The notes beneath the pieces are model-generated. The model was not told the origin of the DNA, made no database searches, and saw nothing but the letters and a program-made list of their open reading frames with translations. The position numbers and the translations under genes were made by a program. Source: Planctomycetota bacterium (lineage in GTDB: Bacteria; Planctomycetota; Planctomycetia; Planctomycetales; Planctomycetaceae). From it: 64,000 nt of DNA. Shown here in pieces: positions 8,711 through 61,520 of the stretch; the first letter of the stretch is position 1; each line of letters starts with the position of its first letter. The stretch covers positions 62,001 to 126,000 of the forward strand of contig QQVO01000006.1 in the NCBI GenBank assembly GCA_003388505.1, in the 5' to 3' direction.

Positions 8711-9020
8711 TTGGCACCACGGAGTCACGGAGGAGGAGTTTTCCATGAGCTTGCGCTCACGGTTACATGCTTGCGCGGCTTCGTCGCTCAGTTCTGGTTT
8801 GCCTCCGGTTGGGTTGTGGGCGAGGGCGGCGACGCCAGAACCGCTGTGGTTCAATGAAGTAGGCTCTAACGGTGGAGAGTTTCGCGTCGAGCGCAGACTT
8901 GGCGTGCGACAGACTCCACGTCGTGGACATCCGACTCGGCGGAGCGAGTCGGTTACATTGGTTGCGGCCGGAGGCTGGCGCTGAGTTCTCTGTGGTGCAA
9001 TGCTTGATGAATACTCCGCT
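8711..9020. repeat. Composite intergenic repeat (modules A and B), 310 bp, no gene
   Basis: This gap is almost wholly repetitive. Module A (about 8738-8820) starts with a hairpin around GAGCTTGCGCTCACGG and shares the words ACATGC, GCGCGGCTTCG and GGTTGGGTTGTG with copies at 21388 and about 51630. Module B (about 8919-8998) contains CCGACTCG-gcggag-CGAGTCGG at 8931-8952 followed by TTAC, then CATTGGTTGCGGCCGGAGGC. The outer ends GGCACCACGGAGTCACGG (8712-8729) and CTCTGTGGTGCA (8988-8999) are imperfect inverted repeats of each other. Confidence 0.7.
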
Positions 9021-20910: not shown

Positions 20911-21203
20911 TTCTATGGCTTCCTGCGCGTGACGAGTTCACCGGACCGGATGCTCATCCTGTCTCGTCGCGGCTGCAAGTCAACCGTCCGGATGAGTTGG
21001 CTGTGCCCGTGGTGGTCGTCGCGCGCGTCTGAACGCATGAGTCAGCCACAACTCGCTTGGGTGGTGCGTAAATTCTGCCAGCCGGTTTTGCATTCGAGTG
21101 CTCAATTGGACGACCACAAAGACACAAAGAACACCAAGAAGTGCCCGGGACAGGGAATCTCGAGGTCCGACAGGTTGCAGGACTGACTTACCTGGATGGT
21201 TGG

Positions 21204-21350
21204 CTTCGTACTACTAACGTGCAGAATCTTGTTGTCCTGCGCAAATTCCTGCGTTGGCCCGTAGCGCACGCTGCTAGCGTGCGCCACCCACCTCTGCGAT
21301 CAGCGGGACGCACGCAAGGCTGCGTGCGCTACGTGGTTGGGTTGCTGTCA
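21204..21350 (-). repeat. Repeat module C, left copy (inverted relative to 23114-23293)
   Basis: Two hairpins face each other: GTAG followed by CGCACGC-tgcta-GCGTGCG (21261-21283), and GACGCACGC-aaggct-GCGTGCGC followed by CTAC (about 21307-21331). The outward flank GTGCAGAATCTTGTTGTCCT matches the reverse complement of 23260-23279. Two GTAG hairpins in opposite orientation form a BIME-type unit. Confidence 0.7.
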
Positions 21351-21612
21351 CCGCGTTCGCGGCTCACTTCATTTGTGAGCGTCATGTTTTCCATGAGCTT
21401 GCGCTCACGGCTACATGCTGGCGCGGCTTCGCCGCTGCCGGCCAATTCGATTTCGGTTGGGTTGTGCGTACGGCCCGCGCCGGGTTTCTTTGTGGCCTGT
21501 TTCCGTGCTAGCAACGGGAAGAATCTTCGTGTGGTGCGCAGATTTCGTGGGCAGCAGATTCCGTGTCGTGGACATCCGACTCGGCGGAGCGAGTCGGCTA
21601 CAACAGGGGATC
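21351..21612. repeat. Repeat modules A and B, second copy
   Basis: Module A: GCTTGCGCTCACGGCTACAT near 21396-21415, then GCGCGGCTTCGCCGC and GGTTGGGTTGTG, as at 8740 and 51600. Module B: CCGACTCG-gcggag-CGAGTCGG at 21576-21597 followed by CTAC. Order and spacing match the other composite copies, but the sequence between modules differs. Confidence 0.65.
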
Positions 21613-23016: not shown

Positions 23017-23113
23017 GCGGCCATGCGACAGCAGAACCAGTTGGCGAGGGGCGGGGGGCGAGTCGCTGTTTCTGTAGAAGCCGATGCTTGTGCTCCCGGC
23101 GCTCGAAAAGTTG

Positions 23114-23293
23114 ACCACAACGGCACGAAGGGCCCGGCGCGGGCTTCGCGCGCAACCAAAGCACGTAGCGCACGCAGCCTTGCGTGCGTCCCGTTGATTG
23201 CAGAGGCGGCTGGCGCACGCTGGCAGCGTGCGCTACGGTCCATCGCAAGAATTCGCGCAGGACAACAAGATTCTGCACGTCAGTCGTACGAAG
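23114..23293 (+). repeat. Repeat module C with terminal motif, right copy
   Basis: It begins ACCACAACGGCACGAAGG, then GTAG with hairpin CGCACGCA-gcct-TGCGTGCG, then GGCGCACGC-tggca-GCGTGCGC followed by CTAC, then GCGCAGGACAACAAGATTCT and GTACGAAG. It aligns over about 180 bp with 51386-51565, and in inverted orientation with 21204-21350. Confidence 0.72.
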
Positions 23294-38394: not shown

Positions 38395-39066
38395 GGTCAA
38401 GCTCTGCTCGCCGTATGGTGATGACTGGTGCTGGTTTGTCCGTGACAGATTCGTCCAGACTGCTTTTCATCGGAGCACAACTGCGCTCCATTGCGTGCGG
38501 TTCGCCCAGCGTGGCTGGTTTGCCACAACCAAAGAGAGTCAAATGACGTTCGTAACGCATGCGCGCCAGTTGCGCGATCGTTGATTCGAAAGACTCAATT
38601 CAGGAATCGATGAAGGAAGCCCCGGCAGGGCGCTGGTGTGAGCCTATTCGCGCTCGCGGTGACCGGCAAGTGCCCGAGTGGTCGCATGCGGCCGGGCGGT
38701 GGCCCTGGTGGCTCATCCAGGCTGGATTGACGGGCGCATCTGGCTCCGCCAGTGTGAACCAGAATGGACGTCGACTCCGCGATGCACTGACAAAGCCAGT
38801 GGCACCCAACCCGTCAATTCAGATTGAACTGTGACGGCTGTTCGTATTCTCCCGTCCGAGTGAGCGGCGTCCCGCTCGAACCGGCAGTTTTCGCCGAATG
38901 TGCTTGACGCCGCTCGACGGTCTGACGATGCTAGTGATTGCAGCTTTCTGCTGCGGCGCATCCTTTTTGCGCCCGGTTCCGGACTCAGGTTCCGCAAGGA
39001 CGCCTCATTCGATTTCACCCGGACATTCGCTCCAACAACGCGCCTCCATCGCACTGGGAGACGGAC
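38395..39066. other. Intergenic region with a MITE-like element, 672 bp
   Basis: It lies between divergent genes. The middle is occupied by a 121-bp repeat (38710-38830) with terminal inverted repeats. No gene is convincing; the short frames that cross the repeat occur identically at its second copy. Promoters of both flanking genes should lie here. Confidence 0.55.
38710..38830. repeat. MITE-like element, copy 1
   Basis: About 121 bp, roughly 85% identical to 52808-52927. It starts GGCTCATCCAGGCTG, then ATTGACGGGCGC...CTGGCTCCGCCAGTG, then CGACTCCGCGATGCACTG, then AAAGCCAGTGGCACCC and CGTCAATTCA. The ends are inverted repeats (TGGATTGACG / CGTCAATTCA) with a second inner inverted pair (CTGGC / GCCAGTGGCACCC). 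No coding capacity. Confidence 0.75.
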
Positions 39067-50410: not shown

Positions 50411-51367
50411 ATGGCAGCGAAGTCTCCTTCAACCGCCCCCACCGCTTCCTACATCGACCCCGCAGCACTGATGCAGGTCCGCTCGCTGGAGTTGCGGGCC
50501 AAGGCGGTCGTCGAGGGGTTCTTTACCGGACTCCACCGCTCCCCCTATCACGGGTTCTCCGTCGAGTTCACCGAATACCGCCAGTACGTCCCCGGGGACG
50601 ACCCCCGTTATCTCGACTGGCGGCTGTATGCCCGGAGCGATCGGTATTACGTCAAGCGGTTTGAGGATGAGACCAATCTCCGTTGTCACCTGCTGCTCGA
50701 CACCAGCCGGTCGATGAGTTTTGGTTCGCTCGCCTACACCAAGGCGGACTACGCGAGAACGCTCGCCGCCACGCTTGGCTATTTTCTGTATTCGCAGCGC
50801 GATGCCGTGGGACTGGTCCGCTTCGACGAGCGGATCGACGACTTTATTCCGGCCCGCTATCGCGTCGGTCAACTGCGGCGCATGATGCACGCGCTCGAAA
50901 AGCCGGCCGAAGGCCGGGCCACCAACCTCGCCGTCCCGCTGGACCAGATCGCCGAGCGCGTCCACAAGCGCGGATTGCTGGTGTTGATTTCCGATCTGCT
51001 CGCCCCCCTTGACGAACTGGAGACAAAGCTCAGCTACTTCCGGGCTCGCGGCCACGAAGTGGTCATCTTCCAGACACTCGACCCGGCCGAACTGTCGCTC
51101 GACTTCGACGAACCGGCCTTGTTCGAGGACATCGAATCAGGCCGGGAAGTCTACGTCGACCCGGAACTGGCGCGGGAGTCGTATCAGCAGAAGCTTGAGC
51201 GGCATCTCGATCAGGTCAGCGAAATCTGCGCCAAACTCGGCATCGACGCCTGGCGGGTGATGACCGACGTGCCGCTGGAGGTGCACCTCGGGGAGTTCCT
51301 GCGCAGCCGGCAGCGGACGATTTCGCGGGCGGCGACCCGCCGGACGGGGGCAACACAGAGACACTGA
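50411..51367 (+). CDS. DUF58 domain protein
   Basis: 318 residues. The family signature is the segment SVEFTEYRQYVPGDDPRYLDW, then ARSDRYYVKRFEDETNL. A von Willebrand A-type core follows with a MIDAS-like LLLDTSRSMSFG. It works with MoxR in an unknown assembly or quality-control process. It has no membrane segment. The final 30 residues are basic and Arg/Thr-rich. The open frame extends 33 codons upstream into the LRR gene, but the chosen ATG fits the family's start. Confidence 0.92.
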   Translation: MAAKSPSTAPTASYIDPAALMQVRSLELRAKAVVEGFFTGLHRSPYHGFSVEFTEYRQYVPGDDPRYLDWRLYARSDRYYVKRFEDETNLRCHLLLDTSRSMSFGSLAYTKADYARTLAATLGYFLYSQRDAVGLVRFDERIDDFIPARYRVGQLRRMMHALEKPAEGRATNLAVPLDQIAERVHKRGLLVLISDLLAPLDELETKLSYFRARGHEVVIFQTLDPAELSLDFDEPALFEDIESGREVYVDPELARESYQQKLERHLDQVSEICAKLGIDAWRVMTDVPLEVHLGEFLRSRQRTISRAATRRTGATQRH

Positions 51368-51385
51368 GGCGGCAGTCAATTGGAG

Positions 51386-51956
51386 ACCACCAAGGCACGA
51401 AGGATCCAGCCCGAGCGTCGCCCGCAACCCCACAACGTAGCGCACGCAGCTTTGCGTGCGTCCCGCTGATTGCAGAGGCGGTTGACGCACGCTGGCAGCG
51501 TGCGCTACGGACGAACGCGACAATTTGCGCAGGACGACAAACTTTCGCTGGTGAGTAGCACGAAGTCACACTGCGTGAGCATGCTGTCGCCGCGTTCGCG
51601 GCTCGCCGTTGGTGATGGCTTGCGGTCAGCGGGCTGGCGCCCGCTGCTACATGCTTGCGCGGCTTCGCCGCTGGCTCTGGTTTCGCCACTCCGTGATATA
51701 CAGAGGGTGTCTGCGACGAGTTCCCCTCTTTCCCAAACTTCTGTTTGAGAACGCGCCCCTCGACTCACCGTCTCTGTGCCCAAACGGAAGTTTGGGCACA
51801 AGGAGATTCTTCGTGCTACGAACGGTGGGAATTTTCGCGTGGTGCGCAAATGTCGCGTGCAACAAGTTCCGCGTCACGGACATCCGACTCGGCGGAGCGA
51901 GTCGGCTACATTGGTTGCGGACGGAGGCCGCGCTGGATCCTTCGTGCCTTTGTGGT
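51386..51956. repeat. Composite element of 571 bp with terminal inverted repeats (modules C, A, B)
   Basis: The left end ACCACCAAGGCACGAAGGA and the reverse complement of the right end, ACCACAAAGGCACGAAGGA, agree in 18 of 19 bases. Similarity continues inward through TCCAGC and CGCAACC to GTAG, giving about 45 bp of imperfect terminal repeat. Inside are module C (51386-51565, two GTAG hairpins), module A (about 51590-51690), a pair of CCCAAAC hairpins (51733-51797) and module B (hairpin 51884-51905 with CTAC). No transposase is encoded. Confidence 0.75.
51733..51797. repeat. CCCAAAC/GTTTGGG hairpin pair
   Basis: A perfect 10-bp palindrome GTGCCCAAAC-ggaa-GTTTGGGCAC (about 51776-51799) is preceded by a related hairpin CCAAACttctGTTTGAG. 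A similar hairpin, GTTCGCAAAC-ttcc-GTTTGAGAAC, lies at 52779-52802. Confidence 0.6.
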
Positions 51957-52053
51957 TTCACCAGGTCCGGCGTGTTCATCTCGACGTGTTTTCGAGAGAC
52001 CGGTAGGATGCGGTCTGCGAATTCGGTCACGACGGCAGGGACGCGCCGCGGTC

Positions 52054-60664: not shown

Positions 60665-61520
60665 ACCGGCACTCCCTGTTCAATTCCGGAGGATCGCGTT
60701 CACAGGCCACTCTTGCGGGGTTGACGCTTAAACACAGAGAAGGGGACTGCAAGCAGCAGAGCGGCGGACCTTGCCGCGGATTCCCCGCCTCAGCGCGGTC
60801 TTGCCTCTCCCAAGGCAACAACATCGCTGTGAACGTCACTGGTGGCCATTGTGCCCATCCCTGGCGGAACGACACATGAATGGAAGAGCGTAAGTTCTTC
60901 CAGAATCAAGGATTCGGATTCTAGCCGGTTCCCCCCTGTCCCGCCACCCCCAAAAATCTGCATTTCACCCGCAGAGAGCAAGAATTCGGCCTCGAAGTCC
61001 GGTCAGGCAGACTGCTGGTGCGTCAGTTCTGACTTCACAGCTTGAGCGGTCCTCACGGAACAACGATTCCCGCAGGGTTCCGTTCTTCCACCACAGAGGC
61101 CCAGCGCGGCCTCCGGCCGCAACAATGTTGCCGACTTGCCGAGTCGGATGTCCAAGACGCTGTGAGTTACACACAACTCGACTGGGGCTCTCCCCGAGGT
61201 ACCGGGCTCAGGGGATTCTCGAATAGGACACAGATTCTCGCCGATTTGGCGGATCAGCACGGATTTCGCGGGGAGTTCCACGAAAGGCGGCAGCGCCGAG
61301 ATAGCATCGATTCAGGCGCGCAGGTCGTCGACACGCCAGAAAGCAATCAGCGAAAATCGGTCCCATCCGTGGTCATCCGCGTTCCATTCGAATCTCTAAG
61401 AGAGTTACTCGAACGAGCATCGCGAGATGTGTGTAAACGACATGTGCAAGACGTGGAGCCTTCTGCACGCGAAATTTGCGAGCGGCGTTCAGCAGACGCC
61501 GAGAACCGGCGGAACCAGAT
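60665..61520. other. Intergenic region of 856 bp with decayed repeats
   Basis: At 61087-61159 lies a degenerate, inverted copy of module B: the terminal motif CCACCACAGAGGC, then GCGGCCTCCGGCCGCAAC and a stem with a deletion (CCGACTTG-CCGAGTCGG). From about 61225 to 61385 the words CGGATCAGCACGGATT and ATCCGTGGTCATCCGCG appear, a further decayed repeat pair with inverted orientation. No gene is convincing. The acyltransferase gene ends at 61521. Confidence 0.5.
61087..61159 (-). repeat. Degenerate copy of module B
   Basis: The minus strand reads GTCTTGGACATCCGACTCGG, then a shortened loop, then CAACATTGTTGCGGCCGGAGG, then the terminal motif. Compared with 51860-51956 the hairpin has lost about four bases and the GTAG is GTTG, so it may no longer be active. 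Confidence 0.55.

Follow-up and report, generated by a model that had tools for sequence, protein, structure and literature searches.

Probable nested insertion in a composite repeat of a planctomycete genome: unit ends match a widespread and apparently undescribed bacterial transposon

A 571-bp stretch (positions 51386 to 51956 of the window, i.e., of the 64,000 nucleotides analysed) in the genome of a Planctomycetota bacterium contains two miniature elements, unit A and unit B. The comparisons lead to the conclusions that: (i) the origin of the composite by nested insertion is well supported; (ii) there is good support for a common family that unites A, B and a gene-bearing element of other genomes; (iii) A and B are probably miniatures that carry REPINs and derive from an apparently new insertion-sequence family, whose candidate transposase is Rep_trans-like, the composite having arisen by independent insertions. 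Among the titles listed from the open-licence literature, none dealt with such a family. The window belongs to contig 3 of an assembly of 6.78 Mb. The 571-bp stretch is bordered by a DUF58 gene and by a gene without Pfam match. A DUF1501 protein was also identified, in keeping with a planctomycete.

The proposed course of events is as follows. An older inverted repeat, with arms ACCACNAAGGCACGAAGGA-CACGAAG, would have taken one miniature element in each arm, at the same point and in opposite orientation (A and B), with a presumed RAYT-type REP (module C) and another palindrome sitting between them. A and B would be non-autonomous derivatives of a full form of about 1.7 kb, in which a left hairpin and AACC(C)AA precede a gene of some 515 codons, and the right end has TAGTAG as its last bases, with YACR following. 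The encoded protein, a putative tyrosine endonuclease with the TBP fold of Rep_trans initiators and a C-terminal winged helix, would nick and rejoin one strand at the hairpin-bearing ends and join the element 5' of YACR without target duplication. The REP cores were probably introduced by RAYTs. The parts of the stretch are:

51386-51404, plus strand: left arm of the older inverted repeat, ACCACCAAGGCACGAAGGA, presumed part of the target of unit A; identical in 18 of 19 bases to 51938-51956
51405-51558, plus strand: unit A, a miniature element made of left end, REPIN and right end, the ends being decayed here; profile match at 51406-51561
51437-51508, plus strand: REPIN core of A, 72 bp, GTAG-hairpin ... 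hairpin-CTAC; direct reading and cores of other copies
51559-51565, plus strand: CACGAAG, inner part of the target repeat, directly 3' of A; sequence reading
51580-51674, minus strand: module C, a palindromic REP-type repeat with GTAG on the minus strand; recurs in the window and inside five units of the genome sample
51775-51800, no strand: palindrome TGTGCCCAAACGGAAGTTTGGGCACA; sequence reading and repeat comparison
51809-51815, minus strand: inner segment of the target repeat next to B, CTTCGTG on the plus strand and CACGAAG on the minus; sequence reading
51816-51937, minus strand: unit B, a miniature element with A-like ends and a single-palindrome core; profile match at 51812-51935 and matches of the end models R1 and R2
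51876-51909, minus strand: REP core of B, GTAGCCGACTCG...CGAGTCGG; sequence reading and alignment
51938-51956, minus strand: right-hand arm of the older repeat, with ACCACAAAGGCACGAAGGA as its minus-strand sequence; self-comparison

The boundaries of unit A were taken from the comparison of occupied and empty sites of other A copies. Since A stops between the left arm and CACGAAG, this arm would be part of its target. The sequence-only reading had described the 571 bp as one element with inverted ends of about 45 bp. The likeness of the outer ends is real, and the outer arms show 83% complementarity over 47 nt (51383-51429 with 51913-51959), but these ends are composed of the arms of the older repeat and of the left ends of two head-on units. 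Unit A (plus strand) and unit B (minus strand) face each other across the palindromic repeat C, each in its own arm of the older repeat and before CACGAAG, hence the inverted ends of the stretch. The pair of CCCAAAC palindromes was recovered by self-comparison of the window (51722-51752 and 51776-51806). Upstream, the last codons of the DUF58 gene lie inside a CACAGAGACACTGAGG-type repeat (51354-51371); the C-terminus of its product may be repeat-derived.

The composite as a whole has no second copy among the 40 places scored out of 409 candidates; it was thus rejected as a single mobile element, no other scored place spanning the whole stretch. On the contrary, most of unit A is matched at 37 or more other places of the genome and most of unit B at 5 or more (40 of 409 first-look candidates scored in each case), i.e., far above chance, in agreement with the composite build and with modules recurring in other combinations. 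The copies previously named near 23114, 21111, 8712-8999 and 61087 (inverted) are real. They were matched at 82-84%: 23113-23293 (82% over 181), 21201-21345 (84% over 145), 21504-21602 (83% over 99), 8868-8983 (83% over 116) and, inverted, 61101-61160 (83% over 66). A sample of 1.206 Mb (contigs C1, C2, C3, C7 and C11) contains 20 profile matches to A above 100 bits. Unit A consists of a left end (hairpin and AACCC), the 72-bp core and a right end closing in ...GTGAGTAG. Unit B has A-like but diverged ends and a different core, i.e., a single palindrome. A third form is represented by five sample units of about 250-420 bp, with ends of A/B type and a C-type palindrome inside. At 61095-61487 of the window, a block of sequence from the first target repeat splits a B-type unit; it is bordered by two similar 12-mers, ATGTCCAAGACG and ATGTGCAAGACG, and is possibly an insertion with duplication.

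The target was read from empty repeat copies elsewhere in the same genome, which serve as the empty-site comparison. The dispersed target repeat GGAACGCGGATGAC/CACGGAT is found in 22 empty copies and in 2 copies occupied by A in the 1.206 Mb. The occupied form is ...GAC[CCCAGCG...AGTAG]CACGGAT, with AGTAC in one of the two copies. No target-site duplication is present at the occupied copies. From this comparison, which gives the unit boundaries and the target, the insertion of A is exact and without target duplication, with an ambiguity of one base in the placement of the insertion point. Among units with a recognised right end, the right junction of A reads CAC in 28 of 34 and TAC in 4 of 34; the fourth base is a purine in 33 of 34 and the fifth in 34 of 34. 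The 4 of 38 A units that lack a recognised right end were dropped from these counts, and two of them show TAC at the junction. Dense dispersed repeats are seen as targets, as GGAACGCGGATGAC-CACGGATGGG with its 22 empty copies, and a second dispersed target repeat, GAGCACGAATCCCGCAGGGTTTCGTGC, has 38 places that span the junction of one query. A DUF58 gene adjoining the downstream gene was found at 0 of 29 family loci (1.5-kb flanks).

The sequence-only reading had preferred insertion, recombination or template switching to one simple transposon. Repeated insertion holds, given the empty targets and the junction without duplication; recombination or template switching is disfavoured as the sole cause. 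It is very improbable that the composites stem from exchanges between palindromic repeats and not from transposition of units, in view of the precise pairs of occupied and empty target copies and of the fixed YACRR junction. Two observations nevertheless point towards it: one A unit (C2:81836-81991, i.e., L095 1836-1991) keeps its frame (the ends surrounding the REP) unchanged around a 72-bp REPIN that is inverted with GTAG and CTAC as exact limits, and REPs abut the left-end motif at a near-identical place in unrelated cases, for which insertion alone is insufficient.

Each unit bears a GTAG-tagged REP or REPIN, and the core of A (51437-51508) has the features of such repeats, i.e., the GTAG tag, an imperfect palindrome and two inverse copies. 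Passages of PMC3733652 describe GTAG REPs and RAYTs in Planctomycetes. The domain search found 10 Y1_Tnp genes over the cut-off in the genome. One RAYT gene (L039) is preceded closely, and on this side only, by an exact A-type REP of 27 bp, and another RAYT gene is flanked on both sides by 29-nt inverted C-type REPs (97%, L031). B-type REPs near RAYT genes are weak (L032) or distant (L040). Outside the frames, B-type REPs gave 13 matches against 0 in the reversed control and A-type REPs 50 against 16, palindromes being counted on both strands; the C-type count is uninformative, with 11 against 8 in the reversed control.

It could be argued from the GTAG cores, the Y1_Tnp genes, the REPs beside L039 and L031 and the A- and B-type REPs outside frames that HUH transposases of the RAYT type moved A, B and C as nothing more than ordinary REP/REPIN clusters, with the outer frame as carried flanking DNA. 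Moreover, the window genome has RAYTs and no found copy of the ~515-codon gene. This explanation is unlikely: unrelated REPs are found in a single type of frame, both within one genome and in other genera; the boundary of insertion is that of the frame and not that of the REPIN; at RAYT loci no frame end gave a match below E 1; and models built from the flanks of the ~515-codon gene detect the frames. The units resemble the REP/REPIN and RAYT system (Y1 HUH of IS200/IS605 type) by their GTAG palindromes, the inverse pair in A and the adjoining RAYT genes, and differ from it by a larger inserting unit with conserved ends of its own and by unrelated REPs in one frame.

Other repeats surround Y1_Tnp genes: identical direct repeats of 72 bp at L032, direct repeats of 86 bp at L036, and repeats of the type GCACTGGC...GCCAGTGC at L035, L038 and L040. 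The Rfam family RF01687 (Acido-Lenti-1 RNA) matches module C (window 51627-51672), the RAYT-flanking REP of L031 (1297-1342, minus strand) and a C-type unit at L078 (14859-14904, minus strand). The likeness to this RNA lies in the matches to module C and to the REP of L031; the difference is that module C looks here like a DNA repeat, with no dedicated RNA gene. The RNA family may thus be a mobile REP repeat, and its match to a RAYT-flanking repeat bears on the reading of some predicted RNAs.

The frame ends are also found in other genera. Beyond the own genome, the A matches listed are of 23-33 bp and fall in the left end in all but two cases. The exact left-end pattern is present in 8 of 150 family genomes and in 4 of 58 genera (0 for the reversed control). 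Ends of A/B type surround a different REPIN in genome G108 (L149, L176) and another GTAG REPIN in G080 (L132). Bases 10-148 of the 158-bp unit of L176 are covered by at least 14 matches in G108, at least 3 in G117 and at least 2 in G034, 40 candidates being scored per genome; among the matches listed, many more are to the REPIN alone. In G080 the left end and the REPIN are joined at three places, and most other places match one of them alone. In L132, L149, L176 and the units of the window genome, no more than a few bases separate AACC(C)AA from the start of the REPIN.

In several phyla a gene of about 515 codons lies between frame ends. In G030 the left end is followed by the gene and by the right end before CACGGAT, i.e., a unit of about 1.7 kb; in G144 the gene copy between the left and the right end contains an in-frame stop, and TACTACGG follows the right end. 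The gene was found in 16 of 150 family genomes (11 of 58 genera). Genome searches gave no match in the window genome, such an empty answer alone being no proof of absence. Of the 8 genomes in which the exact left end occurs, G144 alone also has the gene, and 3 of the 4 genera with this left end have it in some member (P 0.019, kinship and sampling being ignored). An identical 127-bp right end occurs on three contigs of G030, two with different flanks and one that ends there, and a second subtype of the gene-bearing element occupies four places of the same genome. The scan (one genome per species) gave 115 relatives of the gene, with record titles from many phyla, and 80 were kept. None matched among phage records. 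Plasmids gave 9 records, with at most 31% identity.

Ends were counted at near-full-length loci, up to 280 nt upstream of the gene for the left end and up to 130 nt downstream for the right end. At loci with at least 30% identity, the left end is present in 17 of 33 (31 of 4636 control windows) and the right end in 11 of 32 (13 of 4636 control windows). Below 30% identity the values are 0 of 5 for both ends. The left-end count follows a strict rule, under which about half of the gene loci have no left end; near versions seen by eye in the failing loci were left out. For the TAGTA/TTGTG type of right end, the next bases are YAC and then a purine in all 12 cases, though the search pattern itself required most of YAC. 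End-to-end homology was obtained for 4 of 11 pairs (L222/L225, L222/L227, L225/L227 and L237/L256). Four loci (L237, L238, L239 and L256, by record title Thermoflexus, Zixiibacteriota, Chloroflexi and Anaerolineales) end in CTATA instead of TAGTAG and appear to be a branch with another right end. Many loci among L219-L268 have an inverted repeat of the type GGCGTTC...GAACGCC directly 5' of the start codon, perhaps a hairpin hiding the ribosome site.

The many left ends without gene, including all those of the window genome as far as found, might mean that the ends belong to a mobile element driven by a different enzyme, as yet unseen, with the gene as passenger or regulator. One distant relative on a plasmid carries the annotation of an ArsR-family regulator, and weak winged-helix matches alone recur among the proteins. 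This is quite improbable, even more so than movement by RAYTs alone, since the gene takes up the 1.7-kb unit of G030 between its ends as the sole long open frame, independent copies share homology from end to end in the pairs listed above, and nuclease-like residues are conserved.

Two end models were built solely from gene-bearing loci of other genomes, i.e., R1 for the left end (25 of the 29 extracted sequences, 4 base pairs in the model) and R2 for the right end (18 sequences). Covariation analysis predicted zero base pairs for the right end, and R2 is thus a sequence-only model. In the window, R1 matches 38500-38535, 61095-61127, 23128-23162, 8955-8990 and 51908-51942 (rough E values of 1e-5 to 1e-3), and R2 matches 21206-21248 (1.5e-5), 51811-51853 (0.006) and 21520-21545 (0.022), these E values being rough as well. 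Unit B is thus recognised at both ends (R1 51908-51942, E 9e-4; R2 51811-51853, E 6e-3). The A copy at 51405-51558 is matched by neither model; other A copies are. In the 1.2-Mb sample, 34 left-end and 16 right-end matches were obtained at E of 1 or lower. For 11 of these 16 right ends, a left end lies no more than 450 bp away with the correct order and strand, for an expectation of about 0.006 per match. The best R1 match of the window, 38500-38535 (E 1e-5), lies in a gene-poor stretch, has no right-end match and appears to be a solitary left end. The sharing of ends and their linkage with the gene are thus documented by comparison. The claim that the stretch has no transposase stands locally; it does not extend to the family, since the unit ends match those flanking the candidate transposase gene elsewhere and since RAYT genes adjoin A- and C-type REPs.

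The ~515-codon protein belongs to no family of Pfam, NCBIfam or PHROGs beyond weak winged-helix or chance-like matches. The alignment comprises 41 of the 80 loci, L235, L239, L249, L257, L264 and L266 being left out of alignments for in-frame stops. In these 41 proteins weak winged-helix matches are the sole recurring ones, and Y1_Tnp gives no match at E up to 1. Rep_trans (PF02486) is absent among the families matched at E up to 1 (25 of 27 listed), and no HUH motif is present among the invariant columns. Two PDB sequence matches to gastrotropin (E 0.77) were taken as chance. Foldseek gave nothing at E 0.001 or better against PDB and, against a viral library, 5 matches at this level, none of clear meaning. 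The AlphaFold2 models are confident, with a mean pLDDT of 90.9 over the full length and 94.0 over residues 1-390. With the full-length model, a winged-helix match (Z 9.4) and a match to TBP came out on top. With residues 1-390, the first 33 rows of the second-look alignment all bear titles of TBP or of complexes that contain it (best Z 8.8), and a phosphoglucomutase comes next (Z 7.2). The Rep_trans structures 4cwe (Z 7.1, 177 aligned, 4.7 A) and 4cij (Z 7.0, 185 aligned, 4.5 A) align at Z values below 8, which may reflect a common arrangement. The predicted model thus has a TBP-like fold, as in the catalytic domain of Rep_trans, the evidence from fold comparison being modest.

D20, E247, K321, R331 and E333 are invariant in the 41 proteins, and Y323 and K325 are conserved in at least 90%. 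In the model they are located on strands 12-28, 239-254, 318-325 and 329-336. With reference to the Rep_trans motifs as given in passages of PMC5714925, D20 corresponds to the D of motif N', Y323-x-K325 to the YxK of motif III and R331-x-E333 to the RxE of motif IV. The E of YxKxxE shows no conservation in the 41 proteins, and motif I (RxD) is absent among their conserved columns; E247, on strand 239-254, may be guessed to be its counterpart. In the Rep_trans proteins treated in parts of PMC4797284, the catalytic sheet shares the connectivity of TBP, and Y191, R189, K193, R212 and E214 are named; D46, D142 and E214 are the metal ligands in parts of PMC13107129. The order of strands and residues in the model is taken as matching that of Rep_trans. 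From the model and these residues we infer a Rep_trans-like protein, i.e., a plausible candidate transposase, for which endonuclease activity and a single-strand route would be expected.

IS200/IS605 elements have hairpins near their ends, one fixed flank and no target duplication. The units described here are alike in these three respects; they differ by a candidate transposase without Y1_Tnp match (41 members) or conserved HUH motif, the REP cores being considered apart. Like MITEs, they are short, non-coding and multicopy and share their ends with a gene-bearing form, though the A copy of the window goes undetected by the end models; unlike MITEs of the classical form, their left and right ends are not inverted copies and no target duplication is made. 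With Rep_trans initiators and the archaeal Rep-Arvir, the ~515-codon protein shares a TBP-like fold (model) and a tyrosine and acidic residues on comparable strands. The Rep-Arvir family also has a MarR-like winged helix, according to parts of PMC4797284 and PMC13107129. The differences from Rep_trans are the lack of a match to the Pfam family, the absence of motif I and the location of the gene in a 1.7-kb element with transposon-like ends. In the passages of PMC4797284, PMC13107129 and PMC5714925 bearing on the subject, the Rep_trans fold is linked with initiators of plasmids, phages, viruses and conjugative elements; rolling-circle transposition is ascribed there to HUH enzymes, e.g., that of IS91.

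A wider reading is possible and is put forward tentatively. The insertion-sequence family would extend across phyla and be moved by a TBP-fold, Rep_trans-like tyrosine transposase, and its ends would act as a chassis that repeatedly takes host REPINs in place of the gene. Two unrelated single-strand systems would then share one unit.

The ends of A and B match those of a widespread bacterial transposon that is apparently undescribed. If this is true, what looked like an orphan repeat of one genome would belong to a widespread transposon family unnamed by current annotation, Rep_trans-type chemistry would be extended to transposition, and the presence of unrelated REPs in identical frames would be explained.
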